From Caulifigura coniformis (GTDB taxonomy: Bacteria; Planctomycetota; Planctomycetia; Planctomycetales; Planctomycetaceae): DNA of 64,000 bases. The notes beneath the pieces are model-generated. The model ran no database searches and had not been told where the DNA came from. It saw only the letters and a list, made by a program, of their open reading frames with translations. Below, in pieces: positions 6,955 to 64,000 of the stretch. The stretch spans positions 6,026,314 through 6,090,313 of the forward strand of contig NZ_CP036271.1 in assembly GCF_007745175.1 (NCBI RefSeq). The letters run 5' to 3'. Numbering within the stretch: position 1 is the stretch's first letter; every line of letters begins with the position of its first letter. A program made the translations under genes and the position numbers.

Positions 6955-8268
6955 TCATCCGGCGACCGGCAGGCAGACCCGCGGCAGGCGGACGCAGGTG
7001 AGTTTGTCGAGTTCCGCGGCGGCTTTCCTGTATCGGCCCTCGGTTGTGCGGTGAGTCATGATGACCAGCGGGACGGTCTGCGTCGTTCCAGGCGACGTCT
7101 CTTCCACCTCGGGCGACTCGTGCTGGATCACCGAAGACAGGCTGATCCCGTTGCGTCCGAGAATGTCCGTCAGGTCGGCCATCACATGCGGCTTGTCTTC
7201 GACATTGAACCGCAGGTAATAGCGCCGCACGATTTCTTCCGCCGGCTGCAGCTCGAACTTTGGCCGGTTTCCCCAGAGGTCGAGATGTCCGAACGTGAGC
7301 TGCGCGCGACCGACGGCGAGGTCGATCACGTCCGCCACGACCGCCGATGCAGTCGCTTCGCGCCCCGCGCCCATGCCGGAGAACCACGTCTCGCCAAGGA
7401 TGTCGCCCGTCAATGAAATGACGTTATTGGCCCCTTCCACTTTCGCGAGAGGATCGTCCTTCCGCACAAGTGTCGGCTGGGTGTGCATTTCAAGACGGCC
7501 TGCGACGAGCTTCGCCGTCGCAACGAGCTTGACCGCGTAGCCCAGCATGTCGGCGTAGCGCAGGTCGGCCAGTTCGAGGGTGTCGATTCCCTGCACGAGA
7601 AACCGATCTGGAGTGACTCGCGTTCCATAGGCCAGCTGGGTCAGCAGTCCCAGCTTCTGTGCGGCGTCCGTCCCCTGCACATCCATGGAAGGATCAGATT
7701 CGGCGTAGCCGATCTCCTGCGCCCGGCGGACGGCATCGCCATAGCTCGCGCCGTTGCGGAACATTTCCGTCAGGATGTAGTTGCTCGTCCCGTTGATGAT
7801 CGCCTGGATCTCGGTGATCTGGTTCGCGGCCATCGACTGGCCGAGGACGTGGATAATCGGCACGCCGCCGGCGACCGCCGCCTCGAAGGCGATTGTCCGG
7901 CCGGCTTTCTTCGCCGCGGCGAACAGTTCTTCGCCATGCTCGCAGAGAAGCGCTTTGTTGGCCGTGACGACATGCTTGCCGTTCTCGAGCGCCGTGCGAA
8001 CGATCTGGCGAGCCGGTTCAAGTCCGCCGATCAGTTCCAGCACCACGTCCACATTCGGATCGCGGGCCACGTCGAGGCCGTCCGCGGAGAGGGCGACGCC
8101 CTGCAGCAGGGGGCTTTCGCGCTTGGATGGATTCCGCACGGCGGCGCGAACCAGCTGGATCGACTTTCCCGAGCGCGCGGCGAGCCGCTGCTTGTGATTG
8201 ACCAGAATCTCGGCCACCCCGGCGCCGACGGTGCCAAATCCGACGAGTCCAACCCGTAAACTGTCCAT
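6955..8268 (-). CDS. hom: Homoserine dehydrogenase
   Basis: The 437-residue product makes homoserine from aspartate semialdehyde with NAD(P)H, the branch point toward threonine and methionine. It has the N-terminal Rossmann motif GLVGFGTVGAG (residues 7-17), the catalytic-domain segments TANKALL, FEAAVAGGVPII, INGTSNYILTEM and YAESDPSMDVQGTDAAQK, and a C-terminal ACT domain (YYLRFNVEDKPHVMADLTDI), as in the feedback-regulated long form. ATG at 8268 is chosen because GLVGFGTVG then begins at residue 7; an upstream in-frame ATG would add 27 non-homologous residues. It lies downstream of the thioredoxin-like gene on the same strand, 158 bp away. Confidence 0.95.
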   Translation of the reverse strand: MDSLRVGLVGFGTVGAGVAEILVNHKQRLAARSGKSIQLVRAAVRNPSKRESPLLQGVALSADGLDVARDPNVDVVLELIGGLEPARQIVRTALENGKHVVTANKALLCEHGEELFAAAKKAGRTIAFEAAVAGGVPIIHVLGQSMAANQITEIQAIINGTSNYILTEMFRNGASYGDAVRRAQEIGYAESDPSMDVQGTDAAQKLGLLTQLAYGTRVTPDRFLVQGIDTLELADLRYADMLGYAVKLVATAKLVAGRLEMHTQPTLVRKDDPLAKVEGANNVISLTGDILGETWFSGMGAGREATASAVVADVIDLAVGRAQLTFGHLDLWGNRPKFELQPAEEIVRRYYLRFNVEDKPHVMADLTDILGRNGISLSSVIQHESPEVEETSPGTTQTVPLVIMTHRTTEGRYRKAAAELDKLTCVRLPRVCLPVAG

Positions 8269-8426
8269 GACCCTGCCTGTACGATCCACGCGAAACGAGG
8301 GCCGCATCCTAGCGGCGCGCGGGAGTGGCGGGCAGCGATCCCCCGCCACGGAATTCGAGAGATTCAGCCCAACGGAGAAACTGATTGCCGCAGCGGCCAG
8401 TCGCGATGGAGCGACGGATCCGCCCG

Positions 8427-9818
8427 TCAGCGAACGACCGGGCTGTCCCCCTGTGTCGCGACTTGCGTGAATCGCGATTCCAGGGACTTCAGGTCGACGG
8501 GCGCGGCCACCACTTTTCCCTGGGCGTCGACCAGCCAGTACTGCGGAACTGAGGCGACACCATATGCGCGGGCCAGGGGATTGCGGATTCCCCGCTGATC
8601 CAGATTCGAGGAAAAGATGGTCCGCCAGTTGATCTCGGCCTGTTCAAGGAACGAATCGACGACCGCTTCATCCACGTCGAGGTTAACCCCGATGACCGCC
8701 ATCGAGCGTTCGGACTGGCTGGCGATGACCTGCTTCAGTCGCGGAAGGTCTTCGCGGAACGACGGCGACTCCGCCGACCAGAACACGATCAGGACGGGGC
8801 GGCCGAGGAACTGGTCGATCGACACGAATCCGCCATCGATCGTCGCGCCGGCGAATTCTCCCAGCGGCTGGCCTGTGAGCTTGTACCGGCGGATCGCCCC
8901 GGCGGCGTGTTCGGCAAACGGCGTCGCGGCAAAATCGCGCTCCAGCAGCACAAAGCACTGCCGCGCATCGTCGAAGCGTCCGCCGACTTCGCAGGCCCGG
9001 GCCGCCGACACCAGTGCCAGTGCGCTGCGGTTGGTTTCCGTCGGGAAACGGCTTGCGAAAAGCCGGGCCTGAACGGCGGCCATTTTTCCCCATTTGTCGT
9101 TCTTGCGCCCGTCCTGCTCGGCGAGTTCCGCCAGGCATTCGACCAGTTTCAGCTGTAGTTCGATCGCGCCGAACGATTTCGGATCTCGCTTGTAGAGGGT
9201 TTCGGCCTCTTCGCTCAACAGGCCGATCTGTTCATAGTCGCCGTAGGCCGCAAGCGTCACCCGGGAGTTGGCCAGGTAGTGCACGGCGTTGTTGAACAGC
9301 ATCACACGATCGGGACGGTCCTTCGTCTTCGCGCAGACCTCGAGCGCCAGTTGGACGACCTTTTCGGCCCGCTGCATCTCTTCCGCTTCTGCCTGTTGAT
9401 CCGTCAACTGGACGACCTGGAATTCACCGGGCTTGCCGACGATCGGAGTTCGGACGCTGTCCAGGGGAGCTGACTGGATCCTCGTAATCTCGCGAATCAA
9501 CCATTCCGGAGTGCCCGGATCCGGTTCAACGAGCGGTTCCTCGGGTTCCGTGGAGTCGTCTTCGGTCTCGGCCAGGGCGCTGGTGGCAGCCGTGACGGGC
9601 GGAGCTTCCGCCGTCTGTTTCGGATTCAGGTCCAGGACGGGAAGGGCTTCGCCGATCGAAACGGCCGGGGGAACGACCGGAGGGGCCGGCGACCGTTCAG
9701 CCGCCGGCGACGAACCTGCGACGGGAGCAGCAGGAGCCTGCTCCGAGCACGATGACATCAACGCACTGCCGCCGGAAAGAACGACAATCCATAAGAGCCG
9801 ATGCGGAAGGGCGCGCAT
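8427..9818 (-). CDS. Thioredoxin-fold lipoprotein lacking the CXXC motif
   Basis: The N-terminus MRALPHRLLWIVVLSGGSAL followed by MSSC is a lipoprotein signal. A Pro/Ala-rich linker and a roughly 200-residue helical, repeat-like region (residues about 100-320) follow. The C-terminal 140 residues have the TlpA/AhpC thioredoxin fold: PVLIVFWSAESPSFREDLPRL, then VIGVNLD and the cis-proline segment VASVPQYWLVD. Where TlpA proteins have CPPC, this protein reads SPSF, so it cannot do dithiol chemistry there. It is probably a periplasmic binding or scaffold protein. The ATG at 9818 has AAAGGA a few bases upstream. Length is 463 residues. Confidence 0.75.
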   Translation of the reverse strand: MRALPHRLLWIVVLSGGSALMSSCSEQAPAAPVAGSSPAAERSPAPPVVPPAVSIGEALPVLDLNPKQTAEAPPVTAATSALAETEDDSTEPEEPLVEPDPGTPEWLIREITRIQSAPLDSVRTPIVGKPGEFQVVQLTDQQAEAEEMQRAEKVVQLALEVCAKTKDRPDRVMLFNNAVHYLANSRVTLAAYGDYEQIGLLSEEAETLYKRDPKSFGAIELQLKLVECLAELAEQDGRKNDKWGKMAAVQARLFASRFPTETNRSALALVSAARACEVGGRFDDARQCFVLLERDFAATPFAEHAAGAIRRYKLTGQPLGEFAGATIDGGFVSIDQFLGRPVLIVFWSAESPSFREDLPRLKQVIASQSERSMAVIGVNLDVDEAVVDSFLEQAEINWRTIFSSNLDQRGIRNPLARAYGVASVPQYWLVDAQGKVVAAPVDLKSLESRFTQVATQGDSPVVR

Positions 9819-10002
9819 GGGAGTCCTTTCCCCGTAACGATGTTCCATCAACGGCGGGGTTCTATCCCGGCCGCTGCGAATGGGGCAAGAGGAACAGGTC
9901 CCGGCAAGCCGGGATGTCTGGCTTGTAAGACGCGATCAATCTCCGGGGACCTCTTGGGGCGATGATGAACGTCTCGTGACTTTGGCGAGTTCCTGCAGGG
10001 CT

Positions 10003-10501
10003 GGTCACGTTCTCAAGATGGGCCAATTCGTCGTTGCCGCGAAACGACCTGCGGTGACGAGAAACGACCGACGGTGAAAAAGTGACTCGCCCCGCCCCAA
10101 TCCCCACCCGCCAACGCACTTCCGAGGTACCGCGTACCGGGCCCACCCGCGCAACCGCCCCCGTCATGATGGAGGACCTATGAACACAACCACCGTCAAC
10201 CTGTCGTCACACACCCCGGCCCGGCCGGCTCCATGTCTGCATCACGCACGCTCTCCCGATGCCTCCGCTCAACTTCGGCGGGAAATAGGGCGAGGAGTAC
10301 AGTACCACCCACACAACGCGCCCTCCTCGCCCCCTCGGCGTCGAATACCTCCGCAGTTTCCCCAATCCCCGCCCGAGCCTGCGAACTCCGCGCACGGCTG
10401 GTCACGTTTTCAAGATGAGCCAGTTCGTCGTTGGCTTGCGTCGTTGCCGCAACATGATCTGCAGTGACGACCGACGACCTGTTGTGAAAAAGTGACTCGC
10501 C
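10003..10501 (+). repeat. Composite repeat, copy A
   Basis: About 500 bp that recurs at 35397-35898 and starts again at 63826. It consists of a left unit (10003-10090) and a right unit (10400-10501), related to each other and in direct orientation, each beginning GGTCACGTT and ending TGAAAAAGTGACTCGCC so that the ends are inverted repeats. Between them is a core with a conserved stretch ending CGCGCAACCGCCCCCGTCAT, a Shine-Dalgarno-like GGAGGACC before an ATG at 10180, and a 10-bp hairpin (GGGCGAGGAG 10288-10297 with CTCCTCGCCC 10323-10332). It occupies the divergent region between the thioredoxin-like gene and pyrB. No transposase is inside. Confidence 0.85.
10180..10467 (+). other. Small open frame inside composite repeat copy A
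   Basis: A 95-codon frame beginning MNTTTVNLSSHTPARPAP with GGAGGACC 2 nt upstream. Copy B has the same frame (MNITTTNLSSHTPARPTA...) with one in-frame codon insertion, and shares RGVQYHPHNAPSSPPRRR. The opposite strand is also open in both copies (10207-10395 here), so frame conservation does not prove coding. Composition is Pro/Ser/His/Arg-rich with no recognisable domain. I rank it as a possible small peptide or simply a structured repeat core. Confidence 0.25.
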
Positions 10502-10579
10502 CCGCGAGTTCCACCTGGCCGATAGTCGCCGGCCGACTGGCCCGTTAAGATCCGCCGAACACCAACAGCCCTGGCCGCA

Positions 10580-11545
10580 ATGCACGGATCGAACACTTCC
10601 ACTGCCGTCTGGAACCGGCGTCATCTTCTCGGCCTGCGCGATCTTTCCGCGGCCGAGCTGGAGACGATTTTCTCGAGGGCGCGCACCTACAAGGAGCGCG
10701 CCCTTCGCGGTGAACCGAAATCGAATGAGTTGGCCGGCGTCGTCGTCGCGAATCTGTTCTTCGAGAACTCCACCCGCACACGGACCAGCTTCGGGCTCGC
10801 GGCCCGCCGGCTGTCGGCCGACGTCGTCGACTTTTCGGCGTCCAGCAGCAGTCTTTCCAAGGGGGAGACGTTCATCGACACCGCGCTGACCATCCAGGCG
10901 ATGGGCGCCAGTCAGATGGTGGTCCGGCATTCGTCATCCGGAGCGCCGAAGTTCCTGTCTCGGCATCTCGACTGCAGTGTGCTCAACGCCGGGGATGGAA
11001 CGCACGAGCATCCGACGCAGGGACTTCTCGATATTTTCACCATTCTTGAGCGTCGGGGGCAGGTTCGCGGCCTGACGGTCGCTCTGGTGGGGGACATCCT
11101 TCACAGCCGGGTCGCCCGTTCCAACATCTGGGGACTCAAGACCCTCGGAGCCCGAGTCATCGTCTGCGGACCGGCAACCCTCATCCCTCCGGCGATCTCC
11201 GAACTCGGCGTCGACATCCTGCACGACTTCGACGAAGTGCTGGAAGAGGCCGACTGCGTCAACCTGCTTCGCGTACAGTTCGAAAGGCAGCGGGGCGCCT
11301 TCTTCCCGTCGATCGCGGAATACGCGCACCTGTACGGCATGAATCGCCAGCGTCTGCAGCGGGCCCGGAAGGATCTCCTTGTTCTTGCGCCGGGCCCCAT
11401 CAATCGCGGAGTGGAAATCACCGCCGACGTCGCGGATGGCGAGCATTCACTGATTCTCGACCAGGTGACCAACGGTCTGTACATCCGCATGGCCTGCCTG
11501 GCGTTGTTGCATGAAGCTCAGCGCAGTGGTCAGGCCGTTTCCTGA
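10580..11545 (+). CDS. pyrB: Aspartate carbamoyltransferase catalytic subunit
   Basis: The 321-residue product condenses carbamoyl phosphate and aspartate in pyrimidine synthesis. The carbamoyl-phosphate loop [12 protein letters not shown] is at residues 60-71, the second-domain signature HPTQGLLD starts at 144, [16 protein letters not shown] supplies the aspartate-domain start, and [10 protein letters not shown] and [12 protein letters not shown] match PyrB rather than OTC. Length is normal. The start ATG at 10580 gives the usual N-terminus. It lies just right of composite repeat copy A, so its promoter must sit within or next to the repeat. No pyrI regulatory gene is adjacent. Confidence 0.95.
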
Positions 11546-11574
11546 ACTCACAATTCCGCGAAGCGTGATCTTCC

Positions 11575-11856
11575 ATGTCTCGCTGGACGCCAGACCGCGA
11601 TTCCGCCGACGACCCGGATGATGACTGGGACGAAGGGGAAGACGCCTGGGCAGACGACGACTCCGAAACGGCGCTGGCGGAGTGCCCGAGCTGCGGAGCC
11701 GATGTCTATGAAGACGCCGTGCGCTGCCCGATCTGCGGTGAGTACATCACCCGTTCCCGTTCGGTCTGGCAGGGCCGGCCGGTCTGGTGGCGGATTCTTG
11801 GTCTCGCGGGGATCCTGGCTGTGATCATCGGAATCGCGTTCGCGGCGGGTCTTTAA
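11575..11856 (+). CDS. Zinc-ribbon single-pass membrane protein
   Basis: The 93-residue product has a very acidic N-terminus (residues 9-31 mostly Asp/Glu), a zinc ribbon with Cys37-Cys40 and Cys51-Cys54 (CPSCGADVYEDAVRCPICG), and one transmembrane helix near the C-terminus (about residues 71-92). Such double-zinc-ribbon proteins are common small genes in planctomycetes and have no assigned function. It follows pyrB by 29 nt and may be co-transcribed with it. Confidence 0.75.
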   Translation: MSRWTPDRDSADDPDDDWDEGEDAWADDDSETALAECPSCGADVYEDAVRCPICGEYITRSRSVWQGRPVWWRILGLAGILAVIIGIAFAAGL

Positions 11857-34336: not shown

Positions 34337-35254
<918 letters not shown>

Positions 35255-35396
35255 GGTCTTGAAGATCTCCAGGAGGCGGGCACATCCCTCGAATCCGGGA
35301 TGTGTGAAAAAGCGGGGAGCGGCCTTCGTTGAAAGATGTCTCAACTGTAATGCTGGCCCGAACGTGCGGCAAGCATTCAGGGATTCTTCCAGGGCC

Positions 35397-35898
35397 GGTC
35401 ACTTTTTCATGACGGGCCAATTCGTTGTTGGCGTGCGTCGTTGCCGCAAAATGACCTGTGGTGACGAGAGACGACCGACTGTGAAAAAGTGACTCACCCC
35501 GCCCCAATCCCCACCCACCCAAGCACTTCCGAGTACCGAGTACCGGGCCCTCCCGCGCAACCGCCCCCGTCATGATGGAGGACCGCATGAACATAACCAC
35601 CACCAACCTGTCGTCACACACCCCGGCCCGGCCGACTGCCTGTCCGCACCACCCACGCTCTCCCGAGCCCTCCGCAAGACTTCAGGGGGAAGTAAGTGGG
35701 CGAGGAGTACAGTACCACCCACACAACGCGCCCTCCTCGCCCCCTCGGCGTCGAACACCTCCGCAGTGTTCCCGAGCCCTGCCCGTGCCTGCGACTTCCG
35801 CGCAAGGCTGGTCACGTTTCCAGAATGCGCCAGTTCGTCGTTGCCGCAACATGACTTGCAGTGACGACAGACGCCCTGTTGTGAAAAAGGGACTCGCC
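35397..35898 (+). repeat. Composite repeat, copy B
   Basis: Copy of the repeat at 10003-10501. Left unit 35397-35498, right unit 35810-35898; core hairpin 35698-35707 with 35733-35742. In the left unit the 12-bp end GTCACTTTTTCA at 35398-35409 is a perfect inverted repeat of TGAAAAAGTGAC at 35482-35493. The core shares RGVQYHPHNAPSSPPRRR-coding DNA and GGAGGACC before an ATG (35587). It sits in the divergent region between a DUF1559 gene and the B12-riboswitch gene. Confidence 0.85.
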
Positions 35899-36021
35899 CT
35901 GGGATTCTTCCCTGAACTGCCTGAATTGACACCCCTCCTCGCCGAACTACACTGCAAACCACTTGTACGCTGGTGGCCAGTCACCTCGGCTCGAGGGGCT
36001 GGCGAACAGGGAATCCGGTGA
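35587..36021 (+). other. Small open frame from composite repeat copy B
   Basis: The frame begins MNITTTNLSSHTPARPTA and matches copy A through its core with one in-frame codon insertion. Past the right unit (35898) it runs through unrelated DNA and into the riboswitch, so only the first ~100 codons could be a conserved peptide. The opposite strand is open as well (35614-35805). Confidence 0.2.
35926..35953 (+). promoter_or_regulatory. Sigma70-type promoter before the cobalamin riboswitch
   Basis: TTGACA (35926-35931), a 16-bp spacer and TACACT (35948-35953). Transcription would start near 35960, just before the first riboswitch stem at 35968. The -35 box is a perfect consensus match. Confidence 0.65.
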
Positions 36022-36146
36022 AAATCCGGAGCGGTCCACGCCGCTGTATTCAAGCGCGATCGCCTTCGTCATTCCAAAGTCCATTGCCGCGGAGCCGGCG
36101 AGAAGGACGCGCGAAGGCGGCTTGAGAGTCAGAAGACCTACCAGCG
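35968..36146 (+). ncRNA. Cobalamin (vitamin B12) riboswitch
   Basis: The classic aptamer features are present in order. P1 arms are CGCTGGT (35968-35974) with ACCAGCG (36140-36146). The core GGGAATCCGGTGAAAATCCG lies at 36009-36028, followed by GAGCGGTCC and CGCCGCTGT, and the B12 box AGTCAGAAGACCTACC lies near 36127-36142. The RNA binds adenosyl- or methylcobalamin and lowers downstream expression in other bacteria. Downstream, GGATC (36251-36255) can pair with GATCC (36271-36275), which overlaps the Shine-Dalgarno GGAGGA (36267-36272), a candidate translational off-switch. Confidence 0.9.
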
Positions 36147-36285
36147 TTTCACCAGCAGATGTCCGCGTGTGACGGGACCTGCACGACGAGTTTTTTGTCG
36201 GCAGACGACCTCTTCCTGTCACCGCGTGGCGCCGCCGGCGCGGCTGTGTTGGATCTGGACGGCGCCGGAGGATCCATTCACTTCC

Positions 36286-37221
36286 ATGTCCCTGTTGTCA
36301 CTTTCGCTGCGCGCCCTTGTTGCGGCTTTTCTATTCGCCGGAGGCTCGTTCGCGTCCGCTGGGATCATCACCTTCCAGGACCTCACTCTCACCCCCGGAA
36401 CGCACTGGAACGATCCGGGAAATACCGCGCCGGTGGGTCCGGCGTCCGGCCCCTATGGAAATGATGAGTACATCGGAGACTTCAGCAGCGGCGGCGCGAC
36501 GTTCGTCAACCGGGTCGACACCACCTACGGCAGCTGGCGCGGCTTCGCGTATTCCAATGAGCTCAATGCTTCCACCTCGGGTTCGCTTCCCGGCCTGCAG
36601 CATGAGTTCTCGGCGTACGTTCCTCCGGGGGATCCGGCCAACATTTTTGGCGTCGCGTTCTCGACGCAGACTTTCCCCGTCAATCCGCTCGCGGCGATCA
36701 CCACAGACACCCTGAAGTTCCTCCCCTCGATGACTGTTCCGACGGCAATGGCGGTGACCGGCGCCTATCTGACCAATACCACCTACTCCGCCCTCTCGAT
36801 GTTGAACGGCGATACGTTCGCCAAGCAGTTCGGAGGCGCCACGGGGCTTGATCCTGATTTCCTGCTTGTGAGGGCTTACGGCGTCGATGTCGACGGCAAC
36901 GTGCTCGCCGCTAGGCCCGAGTTTTACCTGGCCGATTTCCGCTTCGCAGACTCGGCCAGCGACTACATTCTTGATTCGTGGGAATGGTTCGACCTCACGT
37001 CGCTCGCGGGAGCCTCGGAGATCTACTTCGACTTCGAATCGAGTGATATGGGGACATTCGGAGCCAATACTCCGCTGTATTTCGCGATCGATGACATCGG
37101 TTTCGAGCCGGCGGCGGTTCCCGAACCCTCATCTGCCCTGATGGCGATCACGGCTGCCGGCGTCTTCTGGCGGTTCCGCCGCCGTAAGAGTGCCGCGGCG
37201 CGGGAATCGACGTCCGCTTGA
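36286..37221 (+). CDS. PEP-CTERM surface protein under B12 riboswitch control (DUF4465-like)
   Basis: The 311-residue exported protein has a signal peptide (MSLLSLSLRALVAAFLFAGG) and a C-terminal PEP-CTERM sorting signal: the motif VPEPSS, a hydrophobic stretch (ALMAITAAGVFW) and Arg-rich end (RFRRRK). The body shows GTHWN, FSSGGATFVN, TTYGSWRGFAYSN and YFDFESSD patterns that resemble DUF4465. From memory, related Bacteroidota surface proteins bind cobalamin; this must be checked. The gene follows a sigma70-type promoter and a cobalamin riboswitch, so it probably captures B12 or a corrinoid at the cell surface. The ATG at 36286 has GGAGGA 13 nt upstream. Confidence 0.82.
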   Translation: MSLLSLSLRALVAAFLFAGGSFASAGIITFQDLTLTPGTHWNDPGNTAPVGPASGPYGNDEYIGDFSSGGATFVNRVDTTYGSWRGFAYSNELNASTSGSLPGLQHEFSAYVPPGDPANIFGVAFSTQTFPVNPLAAITTDTLKFLPSMTVPTAMAVTGAYLTNTTYSALSMLNGDTFAKQFGGATGLDPDFLLVRAYGVDVDGNVLAARPEFYLADFRFADSASDYILDSWEWFDLTSLAGASEIYFDFESSDMGTFGANTPLYFAIDDIGFEPAAVPEPSSALMAITAAGVFWRFRRRKSAAARESTSA

Positions 37222-63381: not shown

Positions 63382-63825
63382 AGTAGACCTCGTAGAGAAG
63401 GGAAGAACAGCTACCGAATGGCAAACTCCCCCGACAGCGATGGACGAATGTCCGATGCGGATTGGCACCCTCGACAATACCCGCTGGACGGTCGACTTCT
63501 ACTGGAGGAAAAACAAATGACTTGTGGTTTCTGGAAAAGCCCCACTTTTTTCAGGTGTCGCAATCACGACGCTCGGTGACGCGTTCCCTGCATCGAGTGG
63601 CTTCCGGGTGTGCGTAGAGAGAGCGCATCTGTGCACAACAACCCGGAATCGCAGGACACATGTTTCGGCAGCTAAACCGGGGCAACAGGCGTGATTTGGC
63701 TGTGAATGGGAACCGAGGACCCCGCTCCACTACCTCGTCAGCAATCGGCGGGCCAGCGGCGACGAGGGACCTGAAGTTCCGCGAGCGGCGCGTTGCGGAG
63801 CGCATTCAGAGAGACCGCCAGCGCA
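63382..63825. other. 444-bp upstream region of a DUF1559 gene
   Basis: No gene is supported. It carries the promoter region for the leftward DUF1559 gene and leads into repeat copy C. No hexamers were assigned. Confidence 0.45.
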
Positions 63826-64000
63826 GCTCACTTTTTCAAGATGGGCCAATTCGCCGTTGGGTTGCGCCATTGCCGCAGAATGACTTGCGGAGACGAGAAG
63901 CGACCGACTGTGAAAAAGTGACTCGACCTGCCCCAATCCCCACTCGCCAACGCACTTCCGACTTCCGGGCCCTCCCGCGCAACCGCCCCCGTCATCATGG
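63826..64000 (+). repeat. Composite repeat, copy C (cut by window edge)
   Basis: A left unit at 63826-63927 begins GCTCACTTTTTCA and ends TGAAAAAGTGACTCGACC, followed by CCCCAATCCCCACTCGCC and CGCGCAACCGCCCCCGTCAT, as in copies A and B. The core ORF and right unit would lie beyond the window. It is another copy in an upstream intergenic region. Confidence 0.8.

Follow-up and report, generated by a model that had tools for sequence, protein, structure and literature searches.

A predicted riboswitch-controlled, BtuJ-type surface trap for vitamin B12 with an exosortase sorting tail in the planctomycete Caulifigura coniformis

The stretch of DNA analysed here (the window) comprises 64 kb of the Caulifigura coniformis genome, which is a single contig of 6.76 Mb and 99.91% complete. 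Covariance scoring against Rfam placed a cobalamin riboswitch aptamer (RF00174) at 35954-36159 on the forward strand with 94.7 bits (E = 2.7e-22) against a gathering score of 31.5, with model positions 1-189 of 189 aligned. Nothing else in the window reached the gathering score of an Rfam model, and the match bears out the complete B12 aptamer that the initial annotation had read from the letters. The TTGACA-TACACT promoter proposed in front of the aptamer was likewise recovered, as a sigma-70-like site at 35926-35953 (+) with a 16-nt spacer and 10 of 12 consensus bases; a scan of 35345-36290 gave this site alone, against 0.2 expected from shuffled sequences. The leader running from the aptamer to the start codon (36160-36285, +) is the putative expression platform. 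A helix at 36251-36275 had been proposed to sequester the Shine-Dalgarno sequence, and we rejected it since it is missing from the minimum-energy fold; there, GGAGG (36267-36271) pairs instead with CUUCC (36281-36285), adjoining the AUG, in a fold that itself does not clearly stand out from shuffled sequence (z = −1.74; an equally good fold arose in 11 of 200 shuffles). A terminator scan gave a single site, no more than chance would yield (1.1 expected). By fold and terminator scan, no expression platform was discernible in the window leader, nor was one seen that this leader has in common with the second DUF4465 locus of the genome. We nevertheless infer that the riboswitch exerts ligand-dependent control over the gene downstream.

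That gene extends from an ATG at 36286 to a stop codon ending at 37221 (+) and codes for a 311-aa, probably secreted protein. Pfam analysis assigned residues 80-271 (36523-37098, +) to DUF4465 (PF14717; 150 bits against a cut-off of 25, E = 1.2e-43), thereby confirming the likeness noted in the initial annotation. The N-terminus, MSLLSLSLRALVAAFLFAGGSFASA (36286-36360, +), looks by eye like the signal peptide that had been claimed for it. The predicted PEP-CTERM anchor corresponds to a sorting signal at residues 277-299 (37114-37182, +), which scored 16.5 bits with NCBIfam TIGR02595, above the cut-off of 16, and 20.5 bits with Pfam, just below the cut-off of 20.7; by the TIGR02595 score, the tail has the PEP motif, hydrophobic stretch and basic end of an exosortase substrate. 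The genome codes for one exosortase (116.5 bits, confirmed with Pfam).

A sequence search of the PDB matched the protein to six chains of solved DUF4465-type structures, including 9HMU (E = 3.2e-17), 9FCT (3.3e-13) and 9I2L (6e-10). In the alignments of these matches, Tyr167 (36784-36786) and Tyr265 (37078-37080) correspond to Y146 and Y245 of BtuJ1; the latter residue is kept in all 10 aligned planctomycete DUF4465 sequences and the former in 9. According to excerpts of PMC13398666 (2026), Y146 and Y245 are conserved B12 contacts of BtuJ1, the HI-loop and DE-helix tyrosines, B12 is the ligand in the solved DUF4465 structures, and B12 binding in vitro has been shown for eight DUF4465 proteins, one of which is 'Pan' of Mucisphaera calidilacus, a planctomycete of the class Phycisphaerae (PMC8882080, in part). 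Since DUF4465 is the BtuJ family, the relation that the initial annotation had drawn to B12-binding lipoproteins of Bacteroidota stands, but as homology with the Bacteroides proteins rather than as the analogy it had suggested. Of the two DUF4465 proteins of its genome, the window copy has diverged further (end branch of 0.81, compared to 0.50 for the other) and differs in its N-terminal half in an alignment of planctomycete sequences; B12 binding by this copy is predicted from its relatives.

Three cobalamin riboswitches were found in the genome, and each of the two DUF4465 genes lies directly 3′ of one of them. The third (G000:C1:5989822-5990035, −) precedes nrdA and nrdB (8763-11798 and 7359-8432 of locus L031), which code for a class I ribonucleotide reductase, an enzyme that needs no B12. 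The second DUF4465 gene (locus L030), whose product also has a PEP-CTERM tail, lies 1.7 kb upstream of metE, coding for the B12-independent methionine synthase. Because the riboswitches precede both DUF4465 genes and the class I reductase, with metE close to the L030 gene, the cobalamin regulon of this genome reads as a low-B12 response. The vitamin is usable, as MetH, the B12-dependent methionine synthase, is also present; a cell possessing MetE and a class I ribonucleotide reductase may, for that reason, not strictly need it. No match to cbiC, a gene of corrin-ring synthesis, was detected in any of the ten sampled DUF4465-containing planctomycete genomes (see below), that of the window included, one of the ten being only 73% complete.

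The textbook outer-membrane route for B12 in Gram-negative bacteria is BtuB with TonB, ordinary porins being too narrow for B12. The TonB plug domain had no match in the genome, while E. coli, Caulobacter and Bacteroides controls were positive, and two weak FecCD matches were rejected as BtuC candidates, both belonging to ABC-3 permeases. As far as these plug and FecCD searches reach, the textbook B12 importer is absent from the genome; neither btuB nor btuCD was found among the neighbours of the window gene scanned by Pfam. Lacking both a TonB plug match and a BtuC-type permease, the genome probably supports a TonB-independent import step. A T2SSE-type ATPase is present. Elsewhere in the phylum the situation varies: at least one plug match was found in 18 of 34 DUF4465-containing planctomycete genomes searched, and in one of them (G327) it lies directly behind a riboswitch, so that a BtuB-like route is evidently available to part of the phylum. 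ABC-3 metal permeases joined to the C-terminal domain of an iron-dependent repressor were also observed, at L126 6901-8223 (−), where the repressor domain scores below the cut-off, and at L127 5891-7270 (+).

DUF4465 was detected in 10 of 392 sampled planctomycete genomes, as 11 genes, and these ten genomes contain 18 cobalamin riboswitches. A riboswitch lies upstream on the same strand of 10 of the 11 genes, the eleventh beginning at base 128 of its contig. We added 80 loci from public genomes, the best 80 of 564 relatives, which lean toward query-like sequences, so that the shares given below for other phyla do not stand for DUF4465 proteins in general; one locus (L075) was dropped since its DUF4465 open reading frame was not picked. 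Assigned by hand from record titles, the loci fall into 44 planctomycete loci, 6 from PVC or unplaced bacteria (L055 being from Omnitrophota) and 39 from other phyla. A same-strand riboswitch precedes DUF4465 at 40 of 42 planctomycete loci, namely 10 of 10 sampled and 30 of 32 public ones, the latter scanned out of 34 because L063 and L108 are missing upstream sequence. The two loci without it are L047, which is cut by the contig start, and L116, which is uncut. All four scanned loci of the PVC or unplaced group have a riboswitch, as do 8 of the 10 scanned among the 39 from other phyla, both misses being cyanobacterial. Three cyanobacterial DUF4465 genes were observed (L043, on a plasmid, L060 and L082), with no riboswitch at L043 and L060. 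Together, the covariance score, the Pfam assignment, the solved homologues, the riboswitch linkage across planctomycete loci and the kept tyrosines indicate that the cell-surface corrinoid-capture protein proposed in the initial annotation was right in kind.

The C-terminal ends of the family vary. By eye, they are PEP-CTERM-like in many planctomycete and proteobacterial DUF4465 proteins; those of Bacteroidota we take to be T9SS-like. Such varied ends fit display outside the cell. Planctomycetes of the Rhodopirellula type code for giant DUF4465 proteins of 1000-2000 aa, and the proteins of about 2000 aa at L083, L103 and L114 each contain three DUF4465 domains and a GPY domain (see below), with a dockerin in L083; these could possibly act as multivalent B12 traps.

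Similarity clustering of the neighbours at the 50 planctomycete and PVC loci yielded two large clusters, present at 50 and 41 loci, the next being limited to 9. The first is DUF4465 itself, merged through fusions with a protein starting with AGPY or AGPF (the GPY protein), and the second consists of prepilin-like genes. When three GPY proteins were scanned alone, a dockerin was the sole Pfam domain matched, and a single-sequence search of the PDB returned nothing convincing. A GPY profile, however, matched residues 379-498 of the BtuG1 chain 8BLW_B (E = 0.0035), and the same chain was the only Foldseek match below 0.001 (3.4e-5) for a GPY model with a pLDDT of 80.7, although the structural similarity is low (TM 0.43 by query, rmsd 10.3). 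According to the part of PMC10404256 available, BtuG1 ends in a stretch of ~250 residues homologous to BtuH2, which binds B12. Since profile and model converge on 8BLW_B and the end of BtuG1 is homologous to BtuH2, the GPY protein is probably BtuH-like. By a home-made profile and in the locus stretches available, many of them ended by contig ends, 32 of the 44 planctomycete loci have GPY (33 when L033 is included), as do 4 of the 6 PVC or unplaced and 20 of the 39 other loci; in 7 of the 10 sampled DUF4465 planctomycete genomes it lies near DUF4465, is fused to it or, in G353, stands behind a riboswitch of its own. It was not found in the genome of the window. GPY proteins thus occur in planctomycetes as well as in other phyla; examples are L036 7199-8326, L049 7881-8942 and L088 7805-8887, and several have dockerin or PEP-CTERM tails.

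A prepilin lies by DUF4465 at 40 of 44 planctomycete loci, the ordinary one of the window included, 35 being recognised by motif within 2.6 kb and five (L078, L081, L084, L088 and L099) by similarity cluster; as the clustering covered planctomycete and PVC loci only, the comparison by motif alone is 35 of 44 planctomycete loci against 3 of 6 in the PVC or unplaced group and none of the 39 from other phyla. It is usually the sole prepilin of its DUF4465 locus. The loci without one are L040, which is uncut, and L044, L047 and L085, which are cut by contig ends. Conversely, a TonB-dependent transporter gene, sought in the same available stretches with a home-made profile derived from three such loci, was present at 0 of 44 planctomycete and 0 of 6 PVC or unplaced loci but at 24 of 39 others. 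The planctomycete DUF4465 proteins do not form one clade on a quick tree (10 changes, at least 3 of them forced by supported branches); hence the neighbour seems to follow the phylum of the host rather than the lineage of DUF4465. With 115 DUF1559 prepilin-like matches in the genome of the window, a single chance neighbour of this kind would not be rare; its presence at 40 of 44 loci is.

In a tree of 78 prepilins (excluding L099 and L065, the latter being too short, with bootstrap not settled and partners under a single label), the partners of DUF4465, except that of the window, lie outside a group of 35 ordinary DUF1559 paralogues from the genome of the window. The partner at L030, in this same genome, groups with those of G121, G327, L041, L042 and L046 (97/98). 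Two motifs, picked after viewing the partner alignment, occur together in 18 of the 19 partners in the L030 half of the tree, the remaining one having a single motif; neither occurs in the 21 partners outside that half or in the 35 paralogues, which are 35 of the 115 matches and were not used to pick them. A partner prepilin gave a poor model (pLDDT 51.8), so that no binding site can be argued for it. Prepilin and DUF4465 genes point in the same direction except at the window, L030 and L032, all from the bacterial family of the window, where they are divergent; at L032 (G121), a separate partial riboswitch (68.9 bits) accompanies the divergent prepilin. At L059 (1494-12064, Zavarzinella formosa), two back-to-back riboswitches were observed, one leading to a metE-like gene (by eye) and the other to a prepilin and a 1950-aa GPY/DUF4465 protein, with a third riboswitch at 1494-1702.

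The divergent prepilin-like gene of the window (34337-35254, −; DUF1559 by Pfam) is of the ordinary paralogue type. It groups with the ordinary paralogues (95/85) and has neither partner motif, and we found no second riboswitch for it in 35200-36300 at E values up to 1. Its tree position and missing motifs rule it out as a dedicated partner, and it may be a chance neighbour; a partner-type prepilin stands beside DUF4465 at the second locus of the genome, L030, and not at the window.

The window also contains five copies of an element of about 115-130 nt with inverted ends, GGTCACTTTTTCA and TGAAAAAGTGAC, at 9985-10104, 10380-10505, 35380-35511, 35790-35912 and 63818-63940, twice paired about 400 nt apart. 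A comparison with ~178 kb from elsewhere in the same genome gave no match. It resembles a MITE-like or structured intergenic repeat.

Taken as a whole, the window very probably codes for a riboswitch-controlled, BtuJ-type surface trap for B12 with an exosortase tail, made when corrinoids are short. The mRNA would start at the sigma-70-like promoter and bear the cobalamin riboswitch at its 5′ start. At high cellular cobalamin the aptamer would fold and switch expression off; at low B12 the DUF4465 protein would be made and exported by means of its signal peptide. The exosortase would then read the PEP-CTERM tail and direct the protein to the outer surface or matrix, as motif and enzyme together suggest. 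There, the augmented β-jellyroll would grip corrinoids by loops with the two conserved tyrosines, as shown for homologues, and the captured vitamin would be passed on for import, which in many other bacteria proceeds through BtuB-BtuCDF. Both the induction by low B12 and the surface display are predictions from the sequence.

How the vitamin crosses the outer membrane admits other proposals. One of them, which we consider rather unlikely, is that a dedicated prepilin-like protein forms a planctomycete pseudopilus or fibre which bears or reaches the DUF4465 trap and carries B12 over the outer membrane in place of BtuB. The near-constant, usually single prepilin of planctomycete loci and its absence from those of other phyla would be accounted for, together with the inverse distribution of TonB-dependent transporters, the lack of a plug match in the genome of the window, the position of all partners but the window's outside the ordinary paralogues, the 19 partners with at least one motif that the 35 paralogues lack, and the partial riboswitch on the divergent prepilin of G121. 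Planctomycetes are also reported, in the available part of PMC5394234, to import dextran and GFP to the periplasm by a process that requires energy and to bear pili-like fibres on crateriform structures, the link of this uptake to those structures or fibres being speculation by its authors. Against such coupling, the prepilin of the window itself belongs with the ordinary paralogues and has neither partner motifs nor a riboswitch, L040 lacks a prepilin although the locus is uncut, neither motif occurs in the 21 partners of the second half of the tree, and the poor prepilin model allows no binding site to be argued; moreover, over half of the DUF4465 planctomycete genomes searched have a plug, next to a riboswitch in G327. 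The broader scheme, in which planctomycetes acquire B12 free of TonB receptors through riboswitch-induced BtuJ-like, often BtuH-like, traps and a dedicated type IV prepilin-like protein, coded at the place often taken by BtuB in other phyla, that moves the vitamin or the loaded trap over the outer membrane, is accordingly one we put forward as doubtful. At least as likely as prepilin-coupled uptake, if still only a possibility, is a role of the prepilin in secretion, whereby a type II-like pseudopilin would aid export or display of the B12-binding proteins and uptake would proceed through an unrelated pore. The same linkage of prepilin and DUF4465 would follow from it, the genome has the T2SSE-type ATPase, and the cargoes beside partner prepilins reach ~2000 aa with three DUF4465 domains; yet the proteobacterial PEP-CTERM DUF4465 loci L054, L068 and L100 manage without a prepilin.

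Other readings concern the purpose of the trap rather than its partner. B12 might be held in the matrix or in vesicles, as a store or out of reach of rivals, with no dedicated hand-over. Excerpts of PMC12751083 report that the extracellular vesicles of B. thetaiotaomicron are enriched in BtuJ proteins, whose binding is very tight, and no known transporter was found by the plug and FecCD searches; the same excerpts report, however, that the cells get vesicle-bound B12 back, and MetH and the missing cbiC point to a scavenged vitamin that is used, which makes mere hoarding improbable. That the protein binds another ligand, its riboswitch link being incidental, has in its favour the divergent N-terminal half of the window copy. 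We regard this as highly improbable, given that all but two of the scanned planctomycete loci are riboswitch-linked, that the contact tyrosines are kept, and that all eight DUF4465 members reported in the excerpts of PMC13398666 bind B12.

The preferred reading of a riboswitch-controlled surface trap is closest to BtuJ1 and BtuJ2 of Bacteroides thetaiotaomicron (IPR027828; 9FCT, 9I2L), which have the DUF4465 domain and the B12-contact tyrosines in common with the window protein and are secreted products of riboswitch-regulated loci, much as the window protein is riboswitch-linked and probably secreted. Unlike it, they are lipoproteins coded in loci with btuB, btuG and btuCD, whereas the window has a PEP-CTERM tail on the product of a single gene behind its riboswitch, in a genome without a TonB plug match. 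The best-scoring solved relative is D5EK51 of Coraliomargarita (9HMU), a B12 binder like Pan, the member from the same phylum (both in the excerpts of PMC13398666). The main text of that source contains neither 'PEP-CTERM' nor 'Planctomyc', and the DUF4465 neighbours named in its available part are ABC, TonB-receptor, plug and propeller proteins, with no prepilin. BtuH and the H-domain of BtuG1 (8BLW) have a weakly similar counterpart in the GPY protein of most planctomycete loci, from which they differ in that planctomycete versions carry dockerin or PEP-CTERM tails and are in some cases fused to DUF4465. ZepA of Anabaena, which mediates zinc uptake and is an exoprotein from a limitation regulon, offers an analogy, with zinc and Zur in place of B12 and a riboswitch (PMC10957091, seen in part, where PEP-CTERM is named 12 times). 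Among the literature matches listed, judged by titles and the starts of abstracts, none describes a PEP-CTERM form of BtuJ, a prepilin link or TonB-free B12 uptake in planctomycetes.

A genome 99.9% complete that combines MetH and two riboswitch-linked DUF4465 genes with no match to plug, BtuC or cbiC makes an alternative route for B12 directly testable. The exchange of the neighbouring gene by phylum, from TonB-dependent transporter to prepilin, provides a lead to the function of part of the planctomycete DUF1559 prepilin family, and it may tie to the uncharacterised uptake of macromolecules in planctomycetes.
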